Source of the DNA: a virus
Virus record (IMG/VR): IMGVR_UViG_3300005563_000018
Span: 1-40,826 of that record
DNA length: 40,826 nucleotides
Direction: 5' to 3' (one strand)
A model generated the notes under the pieces. The model saw only the letters and a list, made by a program, of their open reading frames with translations. It did no database searches and had not been told where the DNA came from. The position numbers and the translations under genes were made by a program. Numbering within the stretch: the stretch's first letter is position 1; every line of letters begins with the position of its first letter. Below are positions 2,679-40,826 of the stretch, piece by piece.

Positions 2679-2762
2679 ATGAAGATACAGATTTCAAGGC
2701 ATCACGGCAAAAGCTTTAGGGTTGACCAGTTGAAGAAACTTCTAAAGCTTAATGCGGCCTAA
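2679..2762 (+). CDS. Microprotein of 27 aa
   Basis: A short frame, MKIQISRHHGKSFRVDQLKK..., preceded by a good ribosome-binding site (AAGGAAAG). It is basic and has no known family. It ends exactly where the structured non-coding region begins, so it could also be a short leader peptide for that RNA. Confidence is limited by length. Confidence 0.4.
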   Translation: MKIQISRHHGKSFRVDQLKKLLKLNAA

Positions 2763-3150
2763 TCAAGCTGGGTGCCAGCTAAAGTGTCTTGGGATGGAGG
2801 AGGAAGCGGAAGCTCCAAGTCCACCGGTGAGCAGCCCAGTAACGAGTGCATCTGCGATAAACGCCCTAGTGTCTAGGCCAGGTGCACTCACCAGTGCTGA
2901 GCTGTTTAGGAGTAAGGAGATACCGGTTCAAGACGAGAGTCGCCGTTGGCCTGAAACAAACAGCTTGGCACCGGGCGCATCGGCACCGTGGTTTTAAAGC
3001 CACATCAGCGGGTGCGTTCAACCTTGAGCCTACGGGTCTTTAAGACCTGCTTCGAGCTGTCAGGTAGGCTCAAGAAGGTGGCGGGGAAACGTAAGCAAGT
3101 ATCTTTTGGTGAAAGCTTGGCGGTAGAGAATCACCGCACCCGCCACACCA
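2763..3150 (+). ncRNA. Large structured RNA region A (about 390 nt)
   Basis: This stretch has no convincing gene but is dense in perfect inverted repeats. AGCTGG/CCAGCT lies at 2766-2780. GAGTGCA/TGCACTC (2844-2850 with 2883-2889) closes over two inner hairpins, GCG/CGC and CCTAG/CTAGG. GCGGGTGCG/CGCACCCGC (3008-3016 with 3135-3143) encloses an 11-bp stem, 3023-3033 with 3064-3074, whose inner hairpin is GGTCT/AGACC (3035-3047). The nested stems and junctions suggest a folded RNA or a very structured leader for the small gene at 3171. I compared it from memory with RNase P, tmRNA and group I/II intron cores and saw no match. No dedicated promoter was seen, so it is probably made within the operon transcript. 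Confidence 0.6.
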
Positions 3151-3170
3151 GATTAATTAAAGGAGGATGT

Positions 3171-3314
3171 ATGAAAATACGAAGATTCAAAAGTGTAAGG
3201 TTCGAGGGCGATTGGGAATACAATTTTATCGGTAAGAAATGGAACCTGCGTATCGGCCGAAGCCAAGTAGCTCTGTGGCACAATAACGAACGCCTCATAG
3301 GATGGACAAGATAA
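3171..3314 (+). CDS. Small basic hypothetical protein (47 aa)
   Basis: The frame is open far upstream through the structured RNA, but the start at 3171 has an ideal AAAGGAGG site and gives a 47-aa protein, MKIRRFKSVRFEGDWEYNF..., rich in Trp and Arg. The function is unknown. The stop overlaps the possible start codons of the next gene. Confidence 0.65.
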   Translation: MKIRRFKSVRFEGDWEYNFIGKKWNLRIGRSQVALWHNNERLIGWTR

Positions 3315-3586: not shown

Positions 3587-3610
3587 GAAATAAGCCCATA
3601 GGAAGGATAG

Positions 3611-3718
3611 ATGATGGAATACCCACAAATTGTAAAAGTATATTGTTCTTGGCATAAAGTTTGGCTGAACCCAGGCGAAAGTTGTAAGTGGTGTATAGGA
3701 ATAACTACTCTATGCTGA
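3611..3718 (+). CDS. Small Cys/His protein (35 aa)
   Basis: It starts at ATG 3611 (or 3614) after GGAAGGA. It contains C-S-W-H, then C-K-W-C, and a final C, a plausible zinc knuckle. The stop overlaps a further short frame. The function is unknown. Confidence 0.45.
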   Translation: MMEYPQIVKVYCSWHKVWLNPGESCKWCIGITTLC

Positions 3719-3789
3719 ATAAGCCCATCGGTTGGCCGGTAGTTTCTGCTTGGAGCTTGCTTGCGGAAGTCGGCCATCCAATGTGCTGA
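3712..3789 (+). CDS. Possible microprotein (25 aa)
   Basis: A short frame, MLNKPIGWPVVSAW..., starting inside the end of the previous one. No ribosome-binding site is visible, and only the overlap supports it. It may not be translated. Confidence 0.25.
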   Translation: MLNKPIGWPVVSAWSLLAEVGHPMC

Positions 3790-3815
3790 TCCAAAGAAAG
3801 GAGTATATTAAAACC

Positions 3816-3941
3816 ATGAACCCGCTTCAACAACCAATCATACATAAATCACCACATGAAGCCCTGCTCTTCTTAAAAGCGATAAACAGCGGCAAGATTA
3901 AGATTCAATCTCCTCCAGCAGCGCCGGACACTCCTTCATAA
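3816..3941 (+). CDS. Small hypothetical protein (42 aa)
   Basis: ATG 3816 has AAAGGAG about 13 bases upstream. The 42-aa product is proline-rich at the end and unrecognised. Its last 44 bases overlap the convergent gene on the other strand (3898-4125), so at least one of the two may be wrong. Confidence 0.4.
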   Translation: MNPLQQPIIHKSPHEALLFLKAINSGKIKIQSPPAAPDTPS

Positions 3942-4125
3942 TCCTCTCCAATAACCGGTCTACCCTCTTAGGTCCGTGTTCATGGAGCTCGCCGAATACT
4001 ATTGGTTCGTCGCAAAGGAAGCATCTCATGAGTCCATTATAAACCAACGGGCAATAACATATAAAGCAATAATCTTCTTGATTTTTCAAGTTCTGTCTGT
4101 TAGCATAAGCATTAGTAATACTCAA
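3898..4125 (-). CDS. Small zinc-ribbon protein on the opposite strand
   Basis: A 75-aa frame starting at a TTG codon and carrying C-F-I-C, Y-C and C-F-L-C groups, followed by a helical acidic tail (RVDRLLERIMKECPALLEEIE). Apart from the integrase, it is the only leftward gene I would support. GAGG directly precedes the TTG, which is poor spacing; an inner ATG giving a product of about 43 aa would lose the first cysteine pair. The Cys pattern is the main evidence. Confidence 0.45.
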   Translation of the reverse strand: MSITNAYANRQNLKNQEDYCFICYCPLVYNGLMRCFLCDEPIVFGELHEHGPKRVDRLLERIMKECPALLEEIES

Positions 4126-4249
4126 CCTCTCTTAGAAGGCTCGTCTTAATCACAGCAAGCGCGAACCTCGTTCTTATACCTTGAAGTAAAGGTATTACTT
4201 AGAAACGCCTCTAAAAAGGGCTTTCTAAGGGCGGTGGAGTTTTAAATAA
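4126..4249. other. Divergent intergenic region with a hairpin
   Basis: This gap separates the leftward gene from the rightward run starting at 4250. It contains a 7-bp hairpin, ATACCTT/AAGGTAT (4176-4182 with 4189-4195, six-base loop), without a following T run. It is therefore more likely an operator or leader structure than a terminator. No clear -10/-35 pair was found. Confidence 0.35.
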
Positions 4250-4438
4250 ATGGGAAACATATCTCGCAGACCTAAGAAATACCGGACGTATCTATTAGAG
4301 TCGGCCCAACACAACCAATCCATCATTGATAAATACGGTATGCCGCCCAACGCCAAACCGCCTGAGCTGCCAGAAGATGTCATAGAGCGCGTTATAACCA
4401 AGATGACCCCGAAACTTTGGAACAGGAGCTTAAAGTGA
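4250..4438 (+). CDS. Small basic hypothetical protein
   Basis: A protein of 62 aa, basic at the start (MGNISRRPKKYRTYLLES) with a proline-rich middle. GGTGGAG precedes the start. The stop overlaps a GTG start of the next gene. No family is recognised. Confidence 0.6.
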   Translation: MGNISRRPKKYRTYLLESAQHNQSIIDKYGMPPNAKPPELPEDVIERVITKMTPKLWNRSLK

Positions 4439-4590
4439 AATATTCTAAAAAGGTCTTATTAGCCAAAAAGATGCTCACTCGCAGAGAGTTACGCAGTGGA
4501 ACACCAATCTTCCAGTCGGCGGCCTGGGAAGCCCGCAAACAGGCCATAAGACTGAGAGTTCTATCGCGCGAAGAAAAGAGCCGAGCATGA
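4435..4590 (+). CDS. Small very basic protein (51 aa)
   Basis: It begins with GTG 4435 in a GTGA overlap, with AGGAG five bases upstream. The product is rich in Lys and Arg (KYSKKVLLAKKMLTRREL) and could bind nucleic acid. It ends in the ATGA that starts the next frame. Confidence 0.5.
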   Translation: MKYSKKVLLAKKMLTRRELRSGTPIFQSAAWEARKQAIRLRVLSREEKSRA

Positions 4591-5249: not shown

Positions 5250-5712
5250 ACCGAAAGGGAGACCAACAATATACACAGAGGAGTTAGCTGCTAAGATTTG
5301 TTCTGAAATATCATCTGGTAAATCTTTAGTTAAAGTCCTCAAACAAGAGGGGATGCCAGGCATGACCCAGGTTTATGTTTGGTTAGCAAAGTATGAAGAT
5401 TTTGCGAAGAACTACGCGCGCGCATGTGATGAGCGAGTCGAGACATTGGTAGAAAAAGGCTTTGACATTGTAGATGATGGCACAAACGACTATGTAGAAG
5501 ATAACTACGATAAAGGTAAAACGCCAGGTTATCAGTTAAATGGAGAGAATATCCAGCGCTCCAAACTGAGAGCAGATTATATCAAGTGGTACGTATCTCG
5601 GATGAAGCCCAAGAAATATGGGGACAAAATAGATATGACTACGAATGGGAAAGATTTACCAACTCCAATATTGAGGCTGGAGGATGTTAACAAAGACCAA
5701 GCCTCACTTTAA
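5242..5712 (+). CDS. terS: Terminase small subunit (Sf6-like)
   Basis: A protein of 156 aa that recognises phage DNA at the start of packaging and feeds it to the large subunit. Residues 1-60 match the family opening GRPTxYTxELAxKIC followed by a helix-turn-helix (GKSLVKVLKQEGMPGMTQVYVWLAKY). The C-terminal part has RSKLRADYIKWYVSRMKPKKYGDK, typical of Sf6/P22-group small terminases. It overlaps the small upstream gene and, by its last 29 bases, the start of the large subunit. Confidence 0.88.
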   Translation: MAKPKGRPTIYTEELAAKICSEISSGKSLVKVLKQEGMPGMTQVYVWLAKYEDFAKNYARACDERVETLVEKGFDIVDDGTNDYVEDNYDKGKTPGYQLNGENIQRSKLRADYIKWYVSRMKPKKYGDKIDMTTNGKDLPTPILRLEDVNKDQASL

Positions 5713-6971
5713 TACCGGCAGAAGCCCCTGGAATAAAGGTAAAAAGGGCGTTCAAATCGAGGTTAGCCATTTTTGTTGAGACAACGGCGACCAAAAGGAT
5801 TAAGGAGCTGCACAAGCGCGTCCGTCTTGTAGCTGGGGGAACAAGTGCCTCTAAGACCATATCAATCCTGCTTTATCTTATCGCCCGCGCCCAGACAGAC
5901 AGACGCCCTACCCTGACTAGCGTAGTCAGCGAATCCTATCCACACCTAAAACGAGGAGCAATCAGGGACTTTTTAAACATCATGCAGACCCACAGGTATT
6001 TCAACGACGGCAGATGGAATAAAACGGATGCTACCTATACCTTTGAAACCGGCAGCCGGATTGAGTTTTTCTCTGCTGACCAACCAAGCAAAGTCCGAGG
6101 CCCTCGCCGCGATAGATTATTCGCCAATGAGGTTAACAATATGCCCAAAGAAGCCTGGGAACAGCTACTTATCCGTACCCGTGAGTTAGCCTTCGCTGAC
6201 TGGAACCCCACCAGTGACTTTTATATGTATGAGGATTATGGACTGGAAGATGAATCCACAGCATCAACCACACACCCTGACACAGAATTTATCATCTTAA
6301 CTTATAAAGACAACGAAAGCCTAGAAGAGGCGATTGTTAGGGAGATTGAAAGCCGCCGCTTAAATAAAAGCTGGTGGCGGGTTTACGGCGAGGGCCGACG
6401 CGGTGAAGTCGAGGGTAAGATTTATCGGGGCTGGCAGATTATTGATGACGTACCGCACGAAGCCAGGATAGTCAGCCGAGGCCTGGACTTCGGTTATGCA
6501 CACGATCCAGCGGTCTTGGTCGATGTTTACTACTATAACGGCGGTTATATCTGCGATGAGCAATTCTATCGGACCGGCATGAAGAATAACGATATCGCTA
6601 ATTACATAAACAACTTGCCAGAACCCCAAACACTAGTCACAGCCGACGCTGCCGAGCCAAAGAGTATTGATGAGCTTAGGATGCACGGCGTAGGGGTAAT
6701 TGAATCAATCAAAGGTCAGGGCTCACGACACAGGCGGATTGACTACGTCCAGCAACAGAGGATCAGCCTGACTAAATCTAGCACCAACCTTATCAAGAGT
6801 TACCGCAACTATATGTGGAAAACCGACAAGGACGGAAAAATCCTAAACGAACCCGACCACTTCTGGTCTGACGGCATGGACGCGCTTGGTTACGGGATTG
6901 AGAGCCAGCGCCCCAAGATTCAGAAACCCCAAAAGAAATCCGGTAACCTAACCAGCTTATGGCACAACTAA
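5684..6971 (+). CDS. terL: Terminase large subunit, frameshifted near the N-terminus
   Basis: ATPase-nuclease that packages DNA into the prohead. ATG 5684, with GAGG seven bases upstream, opens a 31-codon frame, MLTKTKPHFNTGRSPWNKG..., that runs into TGA at 5777 just after a run of five T (5770-5774). Skipping one T moves into the frame reading VETTATKRI, Walker A VAGGTSASKT (5829-5858), an acidic Walker-B-like DRLFANEV, and the RNase-H-like nuclease with LDFGYAHDP, TADAAEPKS and DHFWSDGMDALGYG. The joined product is about 428 aa, the usual family length. The second frame alone has no ATG, GTG or TTG before Walker A. This may be a homopolymer error, a programmed +1 shift, or an unusual ATT start at 5769. 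Confidence 0.88.
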
Positions 6972-23900: not shown

Positions 23901-25677
23901 GCTTCACAGCTACCGCGAACAGCTAACGTCATTTAAGGGAATCAAGGGCAAGTTAACCGCACCTGGTCTAAATAAGATTATGAAGATTAACCGCTCGGTA
24001 ACCGCACTAGCTGGCCGGGCTTATGGTAACCATCTGGCCGAAACCGGCAACGTAGCTAAGTTGCGTGAACTCGGTGTTACTGGCGATATTGGTGAGAAAC
24101 TCACCGAAAGCCAGCAGATCGAAGCGGCCAGGGGCTTAGTCGACCATACTATGTTCAGTGGCTCGCGCTCTACCACGCCAATCCTGGCCGAAACCGCTGC
24201 CGGTAAGACAATCGGCCAGTTTAGGACTGCCTATGCTTATAAACAGACCGGCTTTATCTATAACCAAGTAGTTAAAGAAGCCCGGAAGGGCAATCTTGCG
24301 CCCCTGGCTCGCTATCTAACTGTTTCAGCCGCTATTGGTGCGGGGACAGTAGCCATAAAAAACAAGATTTCTGGTCGAAAAGAAGGTCCTGGCGGCATCG
24401 CTATGGACGCCGCAGCCGCTTTGGGTGGCTTACCCGGTGAGGCCGCCTCCGAATTGATCCGCTACGGTATTGGACACCATAACCTTACCGGCGCGGTTGC
24501 TGGTGAGCTTGCTCCCCTGGCCGGAGAAGGCTTAAATACGCTTGAAGCAATCGACAAAGGCGGAAAATCAGCCGAGCGTTATGCACTTAAGAAAATCCCC
24601 TACGTTGGTAACCGGGTGGCTCAAAAGGTTACCCCGCCAGCCCCGGCACCGACCAAAACCCAGGTCGCTCAAGGCGCTAAACAGCCGCAAAAGGGAATTT
24701 ACCAAGTCAAAGCTAAGGATGGCTCGACTAAATACGCCACGCTCCAGGGCAAGAACCTCAAGACCTTCTCAACCCTAAAAGACGCCCAGGCCGCCCAGGC
24801 TAAGAATGAATTTAAGTACTCCAGTAATAAGGTAACTAATATTAACGGACAAGTTTACCATAAATCCTCATCCGGCACCGTGGTCAAAGGCACTCCGCCG
24901 GCTCCCTCAACCAGCTCCAGCAACCTAAAAACGGTTTATGACCCTAAATCCAACACTTGGACCCGCACCAATGTCCAGACCGGACGGACGGTAAAGATTG
25001 CCTCCGATGGGTCACAGACTGTCTTAGATGAAGGACTGGGTAGGATAACCAACGCCAGGAGCGATTTTGTGTCCAATATAACCGCCACCGCCCAAAAATA
25101 CGGCGTAGAACCGCGCTCTGCTCTGGCTGTCGCGGCTATGGAAGGCTTATCCGGGGCGGTCGGAGATAATGGCACCTCCTTCGGGCCATTTCAATTACAT
25201 ATCGGCGGTGCGCTTCCTGCCGGTAAAGACCAGGCTTGGGCCGAATCCCCTGCCGGCATAGACTACGCCATACAGCAGATCGCCAAAGTCGCCAAAGGCA
25301 AGACCGGGGCTGATGCGATTAACGCTATAGTCTCCTCATTCGAGCGCCCGGCCAATCCCCAGAACGAAATCGCCGGGGCGCTGAGTGTCTACAACGGCCG
25401 GAACGTCAGCTTGAATAGTTCAAGTGCCAGAACTTATAAGCTCAGTGGCTCCAAGTCCTCCGGCTCATCCAGCTCAAGTGGCGTTAAAGCCGCCAAAGCT
25501 ACTCTCTCAGCGGTTATCAAAGCCCAGAAATCGGCTTCCGCTGCCATCAAACCGCCTAAAGCCCCGGCCGCGCCGAAGCTCAAGACCTCGTTCAAATCAC
25601 CCGGCCTTAAGAAACAATCAGGCGCAGTCAGCGGATTCTCACAGGGCAGCCGAATATCAGTTAAAAAGAACGCCTAA
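20920..25677 (+). CDS. Giant injected/polyvalent virion protein with ART-like and transglycosylase domains
   Basis: A protein of 1585 aa from TTG 20920, with AAGGA eight bases upstream. It has an N-terminal Pro-rich and helical region. Around residues 400-510 lies a segment (VTLYHATNNPEAILKSGKLQP, HIFLTPNPERAKEFG, KLVQVKL) with the H, F/Y and strand layout of ADP-ribosyltransferase-like folds. A long helical polyvalent-type middle contains YFPHSYPN near residue 800. Residues of about 1380-1500 form a lytic-transglycosylase-like domain (ALAVAAMEGLSGAVGDNGTSFGPFQLH) in which Glu precedes the GPFQ strand. This fits a protein that enters with DNA, opens the wall and acts in the cell. Domain assignments are from motifs only. 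Confidence 0.72.
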   Translation: MATLLKVNNDYNLPNIGISSGQAPPPAPLINIQNAQGAYVPQTYVPPPAPTPQTPTWGVTPIRPSPLQSVLRVLSGLASPATAAGKLAGNDASLIAARLTGNQKARQNARLAGQNNLNKLVDTTRQFTTRPAVELISSVIPKQKTFTPNGGVEKALLGSTPIQNIEKKVANNYATHPNLSPAARVALAAGEGLGSLAQDVPIVGGEAKLAGKALKAVKVPEAVNAINAIPKNEIGAVGKNVNPEASPRPREQIISDIQANIKAAKAATGHEPGEFRSIKGSKTGAKSNMTASMKPYWQKHEQLREELNQSKPNVPDENLAKRYQEMGQQIANDNRNALFEVAQKKGFKAEFTPTNTYRYTLTSPEGKTIRAESLSDAYRLIGTNHLKEFEDSYKVTQPTPIPEVPKALQSYIIGHTDIPPEIKTNIASGNDIVTLYHATNNPEAILKSGKLQPEGARLSIEDRKFSENPDHIFLTPNPERAKEFGDKLVQVKLRSGDPNLTNIDSLDYKYRGELPVKPVTQPTQGAKQTSSYLPAPQTAAKEAKAASGPVAETAVSAAKPKLESKAPTKPAAPPQKSVVATPKSLLSPLSKTTTPLTNEEIKIGHALGLDKRQMAAAKSQNALDKAFQTSMADIRAGKNPKVSPDDLASMSGPEQMRVSNYLNSLTAPKRELPKSPNGVAELPKRQPVPTAKYLFSTKVNAIRSIGGKDANDLADRIVNTDREARDLRANWMNQSKTVMSLSKKEFEEAVDVKEGKLPASAVGSRVNKAVAEMSKVFPDVHSQGFGEGLIIGDRGATYFPHSYPNLNKLKGSKLDNDLQYLMDTEQVDHRTATELFNQMAKEGKYPNRFGNFANARLTEMPGYYKDKQAYTSYLQSAAQNIAEARHFGTDNEIANKLIDNIRINGGDNEAAQKALENYLREADRGRLSKPLQAVRGTYGALTLGKAAISHAGQTSNTAVEAGIARTLKGWGEYISQNKEGRSFIDKTGVTNPQELHSYREQLTSFKGIKGKLTAPGLNKIMKINRSVTALAGRAYGNHLAETGNVAKLRELGVTGDIGEKLTESQQIEAARGLVDHTMFSGSRSTTPILAETAAGKTIGQFRTAYAYKQTGFIYNQVVKEARKGNLAPLARYLTVSAAIGAGTVAIKNKISGRKEGPGGIAMDAAAALGGLPGEAASELIRYGIGHHNLTGAVAGELAPLAGEGLNTLEAIDKGGKSAERYALKKIPYVGNRVAQKVTPPAPAPTKTQVAQGAKQPQKGIYQVKAKDGSTKYATLQGKNLKTFSTLKDAQAAQAKNEFKYSSNKVTNINGQVYHKSSSGTVVKGTPPAPSTSSSNLKTVYDPKSNTWTRTNVQTGRTVKIASDGSQTVLDEGLGRITNARSDFVSNITATAQKYGVEPRSALAVAAMEGLSGAVGDNGTSFGPFQLHIGGALPAGKDQAWAESPAGIDYAIQQIAKVAKGKTGADAINAIVSSFERPANPQNEIAGALSVYNGRNVSLNSSSARTYKLSGSKSSGSSSSSGVKAAKATLSAVIKAQKSASAAIKPPKAPAAPKLKTSFKSPGLKKQSGAVSGFSQGSRISVKKNA

Positions 25678-34287: not shown

Positions 34288-34408
34288 ACCACCAGTCATA
34301 ATCGCCTGGCAATGCCCGGCTTGTTATACGCTGTTCGCCGAGCATGGCGAGTGCGGCTTCTGCTCAAGCCGGCTTCGGCCGCTGGTTGAACAGATCCCGG
34401 AAATCTAA
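34277..34408 (+). CDS. Small zinc-ribbon protein (43 aa)
   Basis: ATG 34277 lies within the end of the HD gene. The product has C-P-A-C and C-G-F-C pairs separated by 13 residues, a clear minimal zinc ribbon. It is probably a small accessory protein of unknown role, and is the last rightward gene before the lysogeny region. Confidence 0.6.
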   Translation: MDYEPPVIIAWQCPACYTLFAEHGECGFCSSRLRPLVEQIPEI

Positions 34409-34702
34409 CCCCTTCGTCCTATCGTACATAGACCACCCTCTTTAGCCTCCGATTAGCGTCCATCCAATACTTAGGTTTCATAACCTATCCCCCTTACGAA
34501 GAAAAGGCCGGTATCATAGTGTCTCACAGTCAATCACTACGATTTTACCCGGCCTTCCTCCCAAACTTAAGGCTCTCAACCTTAGGTTATCTATCTTAAT
34601 CTACTCAGATGAGCCTATCTGTTAAAATTATTACAATTTTAAATAGAGATTTTTCACTCTGATAGACTAATAACTAGAGGGACGCTCATCCCTCTCTCTT
34701 CT
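34409..34702. other. Intergenic region with several hairpins between convergent operons
   Basis: Contains no gene. Clear stems are AAGGCCGG/CCGGCCTT (34504-34511 with 34549-34556), TTAAAATT/AATTTTAA (34622-34629 with 34635-34642) and AGAGGGA/TCCCTCT near 34675-34694. The first, read leftward, ends in TTTTC and can act as a second terminator for integrase transcripts. The remaining sequence is AT-rich, with no clear open frame. Confidence 0.5.
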
Positions 34703-34738
34703 AAAAAGGCCGTCTATACACTACGGGGCGGCCTTTTT
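34703..34738. terminator. Bidirectional terminator between late operon and integrase
   Basis: AAAAAGGCCG (34703-34712) and CGGCCTTTTT (34729-34738) form a perfect 10-bp stem with A5 on one side and T5 on the other, so it works in both directions. It overlaps the last two bases of the integrase stop codon and separates rightward gene transcription from the leftward integrase gene. Confidence 0.85.
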
Positions 34739-35609
34739 ATATGCTGTGGTGGCGTTCGTAAACCGCCCTTAAATCCTCATCCACCACCTGGGTATACATC
34801 TGGGTGGTCTGCAGGGATGAATGGCCTAAAAGAGCCTGGACGTAGCGCATATTGGCATTGTTTCTTAGTAGGTCGGTAGCGAAAGAGTGGCGCAGTGAGT
34901 GGGGATGGACCGGCTTATTTAAACCGGCCTTTTTCCAGCCGGCGTTCATCATTTTTTGGACTCCGTCCGGCCGGATGCGGGAACGGGTCTGGTTGGCTAA
35001 AAACAGCGCCGGGTTATCATCTCGCCTAAAACTGAGATATTGTCGCAATAACTCCTCAGTTCGTAAGTCAATGAAGCACAGCCTGACCTTGCCACCCTTA
35101 CCGACTACGGTGAAAGTCCGCTCATAAATCGAATTGCGGTTCAGCGAACACAATTCTCCAATTCTAATACCTGAGGCATATAACATGGAGATTACGCACA
35201 TATTCCTGATCCGGTTGGCGTCCGGATAACCTCTTTGCTTCTTACCGACAGCCTTAATCAGCTTGTCGACCTCTTCCGGGGTAATGAAAGTCGGGATGGT
35301 GTTGATGCGCGGCGGCAACGGGATAGATTCAGGGTCAAGACAGACCATTCCCTGGCGGCGCAAGTAGGCTAAGACCACCCTGAGCTTATTCAGATAACCC
35401 CTGATAGTGTTCTGGGACAGGCCTTTCTTCTCCAAACACTGTTTCCAGTCCCTAACCTGGATAAAGGAAAGCTCCTCAATAGCAATATCGCCCAAAAACA
35501 AGACTAGTGAGTTGAGAGCTACGAAGTGATGCTCTTCGGTTTTAGAGGATTGGTTTCTAAAAGCAATAACATCAATAGCGTAAGCTCTAAAGGCTTCGCT
35601 TAAGCGCAT
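34737..35609 (-). CDS. int: Tyrosine site-specific recombinase (integrase)
   Basis: A protein of 290 aa. Residues 1-100 form an N-terminal SAM-like core-binding domain. The catalytic domain has R149 (SGIRIGEL), K174 (GKGGKVR), H237-x-x-R240 (HPHSLRHSFAT), H263 (LLGHSS) and Y272 (QMYTQV), the complete set. It closely resembles XerC/D-size recombinases. It is leftward, with the attP core about 860 bp upstream, and has its own promoter. It should integrate the phage at a tRNA-Gly(GCC) gene. Confidence 0.92.
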   Translation of the reverse strand: MRLSEAFRAYAIDVIAFRNQSSKTEEHHFVALNSLVLFLGDIAIEELSFIQVRDWKQCLEKKGLSQNTIRGYLNKLRVVLAYLRRQGMVCLDPESIPLPPRINTIPTFITPEEVDKLIKAVGKKQRGYPDANRIRNMCVISMLYASGIRIGELCSLNRNSIYERTFTVVGKGGKVRLCFIDLRTEELLRQYLSFRRDDNPALFLANQTRSRIRPDGVQKMMNAGWKKAGLNKPVHPHSLRHSFATDLLRNNANMRYVQALLGHSSLQTTQMYTQVVDEDLRAVYERHHSI

Positions 35610-36403: not shown

Positions 36404-36467
36404 TGATTTAGTTCATTCACAACTTATCAGCGCTCACAGATGATAAGTTATCTCTTTGAACGGTGCG

Positions 36468-36515
36468 TCCTTGCCAAGGAAGAGGTCGAGAGTTAGAGTC
36501 TCTTAACCCGCACCA
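36468..36515 (+). other. attP: attP core: 3' half of tRNA-Gly(GCC)
   Basis: These 48 bases match nucleotides 29-76 of a tRNA position by position. They give the anticodon loop TTGCCAA (36471-36477), 3' anticodon stem GGAAG, five-base variable loop AGGTC, T stem GAGAG/CTCTT around loop TTAGAGT, acceptor strand AACCCGC, discriminator A and CCA. The 5' half is absent. With a tyrosine recombinase nearby, this is the expected form of an attachment site that restores the tRNA after insertion. The T loop has A where C56 is nearly invariant. Confidence 0.85.
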
Positions 36516-36528
36516 TTTATAAGAAGGT

Positions 36529-36557
36529 AACCGTCTGTGGTAAACAGGCGGTTTTTT
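36529..36557 (+). terminator. Rho-independent terminator after the attP core
   Basis: AACCGTCTGT (36529-36538) pairs with ACAGGCGGTT (36544-36553), 10 bp with one G-U, loop GGTAA, followed by a run of six T. In the integrated state it would end transcription of the rebuilt tRNA gene; in the free phage it ends the short RNA from the promoter at 36375. Confidence 0.85.
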
Positions 36558-37232: not shown

Positions 37233-37590
37233 ACCGTAGGGCGTAGTAGTGAGGGAAAAAGAGCCGTTCAAGTTGAGTGATACACCGCTCAGCGATGAGG
37301 AAAGTAAGCGTAGCTCTCGGCGACATCTAAGTGTATCGGATAATCGCCCCCTCTCTCATACGCCCTACCTCAAACATCCGGGCAGACTTCGGACTCTATG
37401 TAAATTGCGGGATTGTCCGAAGCCCACCTGGGCCGGTTGAGGCCCGCACCTTTGTTATGGCGGCAAGCCCCTCTTCATTCATTAGGGTCCATACACTTGC
37501 CGCCCCAGAATTGGTTTTTAAGTTTTAAAAGCCAGCCCTGGGGGTGAATGCCACATTGATGGCCAGCGCTACAAAGCCGGTAGCCCCCAG
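37233..37590 (+). ncRNA. Large structured RNA region C (about 360 nt)
   Basis: At least six perfect or near-perfect helices are present. GTAGGGCGTA/TACGCCCTAC (37236-37245 with 37359-37368, 10 bp) encloses GAGGG/CCCTC and GATACAC/GTGTATC (37279-37285 with 37331-37337). Further stems are CTTCGGA/TCCGAAG (37387-37393 with 37416-37422), GGGCC/GGCCC (37430-37445), GGCGGCAAG/CTTGCCGCC (37459-37467 with 37496-37504) and CTGGGGG/CCCCCAG (37538-37544 with 37584-37590). The region ends just before the ribosome-binding site of the next gene. It is too structured to be ordinary spacer. I could not match it by eye to RNase P, tmRNA, GOLLD/ROOL or intron cores. Confidence 0.65.
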
Positions 37591-37613
37591 CCAATAAGTA
37601 ATAGGAGAGAAAA

Positions 37614-40489: not shown

Positions 40490-40826
40490 AAAAGTGAAAA
40501 TCCAGATAACTAGCTGGTTAAACGGTTCGGTACTGTTCGAATATGAATCCGTAGACAATACGATAGCCAAAACTCTGGAGAAGGCGGTTAGTAAAGATGC
40601 CGACCTACGCTATGCCAACCTAAGCTATGCCAACCTAAGCTCTGCCAACCTAAGCTATGCCGACCTACGCTATGCCGACCTACGCTATGCCAACCTAAGC
40701 TATGCCAACCTACGCTATGCCGACCTACGCTATGCCAACCTAAGCTCTGCCAACCTAAGCTATGCCGACCTACGCTATGCCGACCTACGCTATGCCAACC
40801 TAAGCTATGCCAACCTACGCTATGCC
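40482..40826 (+). CDS. Pentapeptide-repeat protein, N-terminal part (gene crosses the window ends)
   Basis: It starts at GTG 40482 with GGAG eight bases upstream. Residues 1-39 form the small N-terminal domain (KVKIQITSWLNGSVLFEYES, DNTIAKTLEKAV) that often precedes pentapeptide arrays in phages. Residues 40-115 are 15 pentapeptides of DLRYA, NLSYA, NLSSA and NLRYA types. The frame is open at the window end and continues at base 81 after the overlap is removed. Confidence 0.85.
   Translation, partial: MSKKVKIQITSWLNGSVLFEYESVDNTIAKTLEKAVSKDADLRYANLSYANLSSANLSYADLRYADLRYANLSYANLRYADLRYANLSSANLSYADLRYADLRYANLSYANLRYA
40642..40826 (+). repeat. 105-nt higher-order tandem repeat in the pentapeptide array
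   Basis: Bases 40642-40721 recur at 40747-40826, 105 nt (seven pentapeptides) apart, and again at 1-80. Assemblers fail in such arrays, so the true copy number of the 105-nt unit, and hence the protein length, is uncertain. The right end of the window falls inside this array. Confidence 0.8.

Follow-up and report, generated by a model that had tools for sequence, protein, structure and literature searches.

A candidate structured noncoding RNA in a gene-free gap of an uncultivated soil phage

Gene-free gap and its genomic setting

The analyzed window is the whole IMG/VR record (40,826 bp) of an uncultivated soil phage. According to a simple gene caller, all genes from about 36.7 kb through the record ends to about 7.3 kb are oriented in the same direction. 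In this gene run, a gene-free gap of 408 nt is located at 2763-3170, as a 27-aa ORF stops at 2762 and the next ORF begins with an ATG at 3171 (Table 1). Its structured core comprises 388 nt (2763-3150). The original prediction had described a gap of 390 nt, which is real but slightly larger. For the 27-aa ORF, no family match was found in Pfam or PHROGs. Another gap of the same gene run (3942-4249), the third and about 300 nt in length, is moderately structured (z -2.9).

The genome encodes a terminase, a tyrosine integrase (34.7-35.6 kb) and a CHAP-domain protein, and no tRNA genes were found in the window by ARAGORN. A 15-nt repeat coding for a pentapeptide-repeat protein spans both record ends (1-160 and 40597-40826), and the number of its repeats may be misassembled. 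Since this repeat occurs at both ends and the junction is also covered by a second contig from the same phage, a circular or circularly permuted genome is probable. The designation of the region as an early operon finds no support from a regulator or from expression. The argument that a compact phage does not keep 390 unused bases proved weak, because related phages contain several gaps of 300-1300 nt without called genes, whose structure on average slightly exceeds that of coding sequence.

By the available tests, the gap itself is noncoding, and everything points the same way: codon score, codon-position GC and family searches agree. All ORFs inside it score between -0.22 and -0.47 bits/codon, like off-frame readings (mean -0.30, vs. 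-0.04 for annotated short genes), although the codon score alone is a weak test because it gives values near zero for the short genes of this phage. The GC content by codon position of the longest gap ORF is 0.60/0.59/0.50, vs. 0.55/0.43/0.56 in long genes, and none of the gap ORFs has a convincing match in Pfam or PHROGs. An unrecognized small protein gene, e.g., the ORF 2752-2997 (81 aa) or 2794-2997 (67 aa), is thus very improbable, even though the frame stays open for 67 to 81 codons.

Predicted folding of the gap

The coding-direction strand of 2763-3150 folds with -162.5 kcal/mol compared to -135.4 ± 5.3 kcal/mol in dinucleotide shuffles (z -5.09), and none of the 400 shuffles was as stable. 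For the opposite strand, likewise with 400 shuffles, the z-score is only -2.77. Three perfect helices of at least 11 bp are present, a number reached in 4 of the 400 shuffles (mean 0.39). Among 135 sampled 388-nt windows of the genome, the element has the lowest energy and ranks second by z; the coding-region window 24063-24450 is equally extreme in z. A slightly longer stretch gives a z-score of -3.9 (100 shuffles), and in 200-nt windows the gap is less exceptional (best z -2.9, rank 23 of 407). Although thermodynamic folding by itself is weak proof of an RNA element, the folding statistics together with the strand bias and the absent coding signal support the original prediction of a large structured RNA region, and 2763-3150 is likely to be a structured noncoding RNA.

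The strand asymmetry also bears on a function of the region as DNA, i.e., as a replication origin or as a packaging or attachment site with palindromes. The stretch is GC-rich and palindromic, and the small terminase gene follows about 2.1 kb downstream, which would fit such a site. However, its folding depends strongly on the strand, repeated iteron-like words are absent, the GC-skew turns near 36 kb and 7 kb, away from the element, and the integrase is encoded at 34.7-35.6 kb, which makes this explanation quite improbable.

For the 5′ half of the element, two nearly equal folds are predicted, which are about 1-2 kcal/mol apart. The first is built on a long-range helix (2771-2780/2962-2972; MFE -162.5, ensemble -167.1 kcal/mol) and the second on a local 14-bp helix (2894-2907/2958-2971; -160.3, ensemble -166.2 kcal/mol), and each helix excludes the other. 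In the second fold, six local stem domains (A-F, Table 1) cover the whole gap with linkers of 0-5 nt. In the first fold, the region of domain A instead provides the 5′ strand of the long-range helix. Taken singly, domains B to F reach z-scores of -3.4 to -3.8, values which are inflated because the domain boundaries derive from the fold.

Table 1. Features of the gap and its flanking ORFs in the window.
Feature	Position	Strand	Description
27-aa ORF	2679-2762	+	adjoins gap upstream; stop 2760-2762; MKIQISRHHGKSFRVDQLKKLLKLNAA
Structured noncoding RNA region (likely), whole element	2763-3150	+	z -5.09 (+), -2.77 (-); noncoding frames
Domain A (predicted)	2767-2840	+	GCTGGGTGC.. / ..GCA.CCCAGT; alone z -1.1, not above chance
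Domain B (predicted)	2844-2889	+	11-bp helix GAGTGCATCTG/CAGGTGCACTC, 2844-2854/2879-2889; p 0.98; alone z -3.8
Domain C (predicted)	2891-2974	+	14-bp helix GTGCTGAGCTGTTT/AAACAGCTTGGCAC, 2894-2907/2958-2971; longest perfect helix
Domain D (predicted)	2975-3017	+	GCGCATC/GGTGCGT, inner hairpin 2988-2993/2998-3003; alone z -3.4
Domain E (predicted)	3023-3074	+	11-bp arm CTTGAGCCTAC/GTAGGCTCAAG, two inner hairpins; p 0.99; z -3.75
Domain F (predicted)	3078-3146	+	8-bp helix GTGGCGGG/CCCGCCAC (3078-3085/3139-3146) closing two hairpins; p 0.98; z -3.5
47-aa ORF	3171-3314	+	adjoins gap downstream; Shine-Dalgarno AAAGGAGG just beyond last domain

Several stems had been proposed from the letters before. 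The junction helix GAGTGCA/TGCACTC (2844-2850/2883-2889) is present, but belongs to the longer 11-bp helix of domain B, which encloses one or two small hairpins. The two hairpins proposed inside it (2854-2864 and 2865-2877) are 1.5 kcal/mol worse than an alternative pairing and about equally plausible. The proposed 11-bp arm was recovered as 3023-3033/3064-3074 in domain E. The helix GCGGGTGCG/CGCACCCGC (3008-3016/3135-3143), which was to close a larger domain containing this arm, has nine perfect pairs, but its enforcement raises the energy by 11.1 kcal/mol because the arms 2973-3019 and 3078-3146 are broken, so that it is unlikely to dominate.

No H-type pseudoknots above shuffles were found in 2763-3150. 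The two competing 5′ folds and the lack of an outstanding pseudoknot do not point to one defined tertiary fold. Furthermore, no cloverleaf, tRNA-like or tmRNA domain was detected in the element by ARAGORN or Rfam. The end of domain F, an 8-bp stem followed by ACCA, was considered as a tRNA-like structure; it found no support from either program, and as a CCA after one of six stems is by chance not rare, this candidate was set aside.

Homologue search and structured gaps elsewhere

The Infernal/Rfam search, which had been suggested with the original prediction, returned no relevant family for the element or for its relatives, neither at the gathering score nor at E ≤ 10. This bears on a self-splicing intron or a self-cleaving ribozyme, for which size and complexity would be within range and which could explain the tiny flanking ORFs by a split gene. 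No group I, group II or ribozyme family was found at E ≤ 10 except for a 12-bit match to Twister-P5 on the other strand, far below its cut-off of 37.6 bits, and this reading is very unlikely.

Searches by blastn against cultured phages and plasmids yielded chance matches or nothing. Relatives were retrieved by searches guided by the terminase, the 162-aa protein encoded upstream, the 37771 protein and an L008 gene; of these relatives, only the contig L002 contains the RNA, and none of the others found retains the flanking genes. The terminase search gave 40 contigs; L002 and L003 represent the same phage, and the remaining contigs show no more than 67% identity. Over 15,387 bp, L002 and the window differ at only two positions (3050 and 3053), both C/T, 3 nt apart and inside domain E. 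One retains its pair as U-G and the other lies in a loop; both agree with the fold, albeit in a single near-identical copy. Four exact 17-mers from different parts of the RNA found only the same phage among viral contigs, and other matches had no extended similarity. Likewise, no homologue was found with single-sequence covariance models of both halves in 32 sources, nor with the model of the 5′ half in 17 whole records. One extra significant hit of these models was rejected, as it is the reverse strand of the RNA itself, which is expected because the element consists of stems. Overall, 2763-3150 is a credible candidate for a new noncoding RNA without detectable relatives.

In the same phage, the region 37233-37613 (z -4.5) also fills the whole gap between two same-direction genes, but its strands fold about equally well, whereas 2763-3150 has a strong strand bias. 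A fold shared with this region (37233-37590 in the original prediction) was tested for and not detected by covariance models: with filters off, the best same-strand scores were 1.5 and 1.1 bits. In 37233-37613, the loop AUACAC (37280-37285) might pair with the complementary GUGUAU (37331-37336) of a second predicted loop as a kissing interaction, and an H-type pseudoknot candidate lies at 37387-37448 (p ~0.02 vs. shuffles).

Two further stretches of this genome are strongly structured. The first one (36418-36556; 200-nt z -4.7) is located upstream of the transglycosylase gene and ends in a hairpin resembling an intrinsic terminator (AACCGTCTGT/ACAGGCGGTT), followed by a T run; it looks like a small RNA or a leader. 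The second one (34401-34740) adjoins the integrase gene; no other 200-nt fold of the genome is as extreme (z -7.0). This stretch shows a weak Thr_leader match under the cut-off and is possibly a terminator pair or an attachment site.

The related contig L008 agrees with the window in gene order, from the transglycosylase on the upstream side to the small terminase on the downstream side. Directly after the transglycosylase, where the window has 37233-37613, L008 contains a structured gap of 160 nt (z -6.6). A second gap of 345 nt (5334-5678) has z-scores of -4.78 on the coding-direction strand and -1.99 on the other. Like 2763-3150, it precedes the small terminase, is flanked by a small ORF (31 aa) and a small gene, and shows the same strand bias. 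However, both structured gaps lack sequence similarity to the RNAs of the window, and the models of 2763-3150 gave nothing above ~4 bits against 5334-5678. Across twelve related loci, noncoding gaps have a mean z-score of -1.0 compared to -0.4 for coding windows (p = 0.03). This suggests, without proving it, a tendency of the phage group to keep structured noncoding stretches in fixed positions.

Long gaps also occur in other relatives. The closest distinct relative, L004, has 1364 nt without a called gene (5553-6916) with several structured stretches (z ~-4), one of which (~6607-6780) seems to have a closing helix of 9 bp and precedes a terminator-like hairpin. L045, a 40-kb contig from the Arthrobacter cavernae PO-11 assembly with a terminase 63% identical, has a gap that spans about 840 nt (3600-4440; z -5.1). 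With a GC content of 52.5%, L045 may be a phage of Arthrobacter cavernae or of a co-cultured organism. Among 295 genomes sampled from the family to which Arthrobacter cavernae belongs, 2 contained terminase relatives, which is not enough to assign the host.

The structure might also be incidental in decayed or neutral GC-rich filler, in line with the missing homologue, the noncoding gaps of relatives that are just slightly more structured than genes, and the one coding window that is equally extreme by z. Against this stand the z-score of -5.09, the three long helices and the strand bias, as well as the stems that tile the gap almost completely, and this reading is considered rather unlikely.

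Regulatory signals, function and comparison with known RNAs

In a simple scan, no terminator was found within the element and no promoter-like site on the + strand between 2537 and 3389. The Shine-Dalgarno sequence of the 47-aa ORF is not part of any domain and stays 34-84% unpaired, whereas the AUG pairs locally. A riboswitch or attenuator is not favored, since neither a fold-controlled terminator nor a sequestered ribosome site was detected.

The main rival, second after an RNA acting in its own right, is a cis-acting mRNA element whose stems set processing or decay between the neighboring genes, polymerase readthrough or translation of the 47-aa ORF, the latter perhaps tuned via the two competing 5′ folds. 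An example of readthrough is the put RNA of phage HK022, which lets RNA polymerase read on. It is a structured antitermination RNA within the phage transcript, as is predicted here, but far shorter, and differs in that no terminator was found in or near 2763-3150. The position among same-direction genes without an own terminator and the near-equal alternative folds of the 5′ half are consistent with a cis-acting role. The lack of a terminator or sequestered ribosome site counts against it, and with about 390 nt the region is long for a role in decay or antitermination. This role is possible but the less probable of the two.

Tentatively preferred, though with a probability somewhat short of one half, is a noncoding RNA within a rightward polycistronic phage transcript, which most likely acts as RNA itself rather than as a switch for the neighboring genes. 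We infer its transcription, processing, partner and function alike. The element would be transcribed as part of the operon, fold into five or six successive stem domains spanning the whole gap and either be excised from the transcript, probably by processing, or remain in it. The compact stem array may then bind a host or phage protein or a nuclease and serve as a scaffold, decoy or regulator; such an action in trans is our proposal. An RNA acting in its own right is favored because of the folding statistics (z -5.09, 0 of 400 shuffles), the clear strand bias, the lowest energy among the sampled 388-nt windows, the noncoding frames, the domains tiling the gap with short linkers, the downstream ribosome site outside these domains, and the L008 gap with the same strand bias at an analogous place. 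The missing terminator and + strand promoter favor an RNA embedded in the transcript. The absent homologue, the silence of Rfam and the one coding window of similar z count against the RNA reading.

A broader and rather speculative proposal, which we consider improbable, is that an uncultivated temperate phage lineage carries large structured RNAs at fixed genome places, which diverge so rapidly between phages that they become unrecognizable in both sequence and fold, with 2763-3150 as one of them, belonging to an undescribed class and acting in trans on the host. If such an RNA recurs at the same place in a relative with its sequence fully replaced, this would suggest that phages maintain structured RNAs which are invisible to family-based searches. 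If it is real and transcribed, the element adds an unclassified RNA of about 390 nt to the small group of large phage noncoding RNAs.

GOLLD and ROOL are large structured RNAs of phages and prophages which form homo-oligomeric cages and whose function is unknown; ROOL env-120 comprises 659 nt and GOLLD often over 800 nt (PMC12286853). Like them, the element is phage-encoded, large and, by prediction, highly structured. It differs in its smaller size of about 390 nt, in having no Rfam match at the gathering score or at E ≤ 10 and no pseudoknot above chance, and in the lack of tRNA genes in the window. GOLLD and ROOL are the nearest known kind. By the available tests the element does not belong to it and is most suitably listed as an unclassified candidate among structured phage RNAs.
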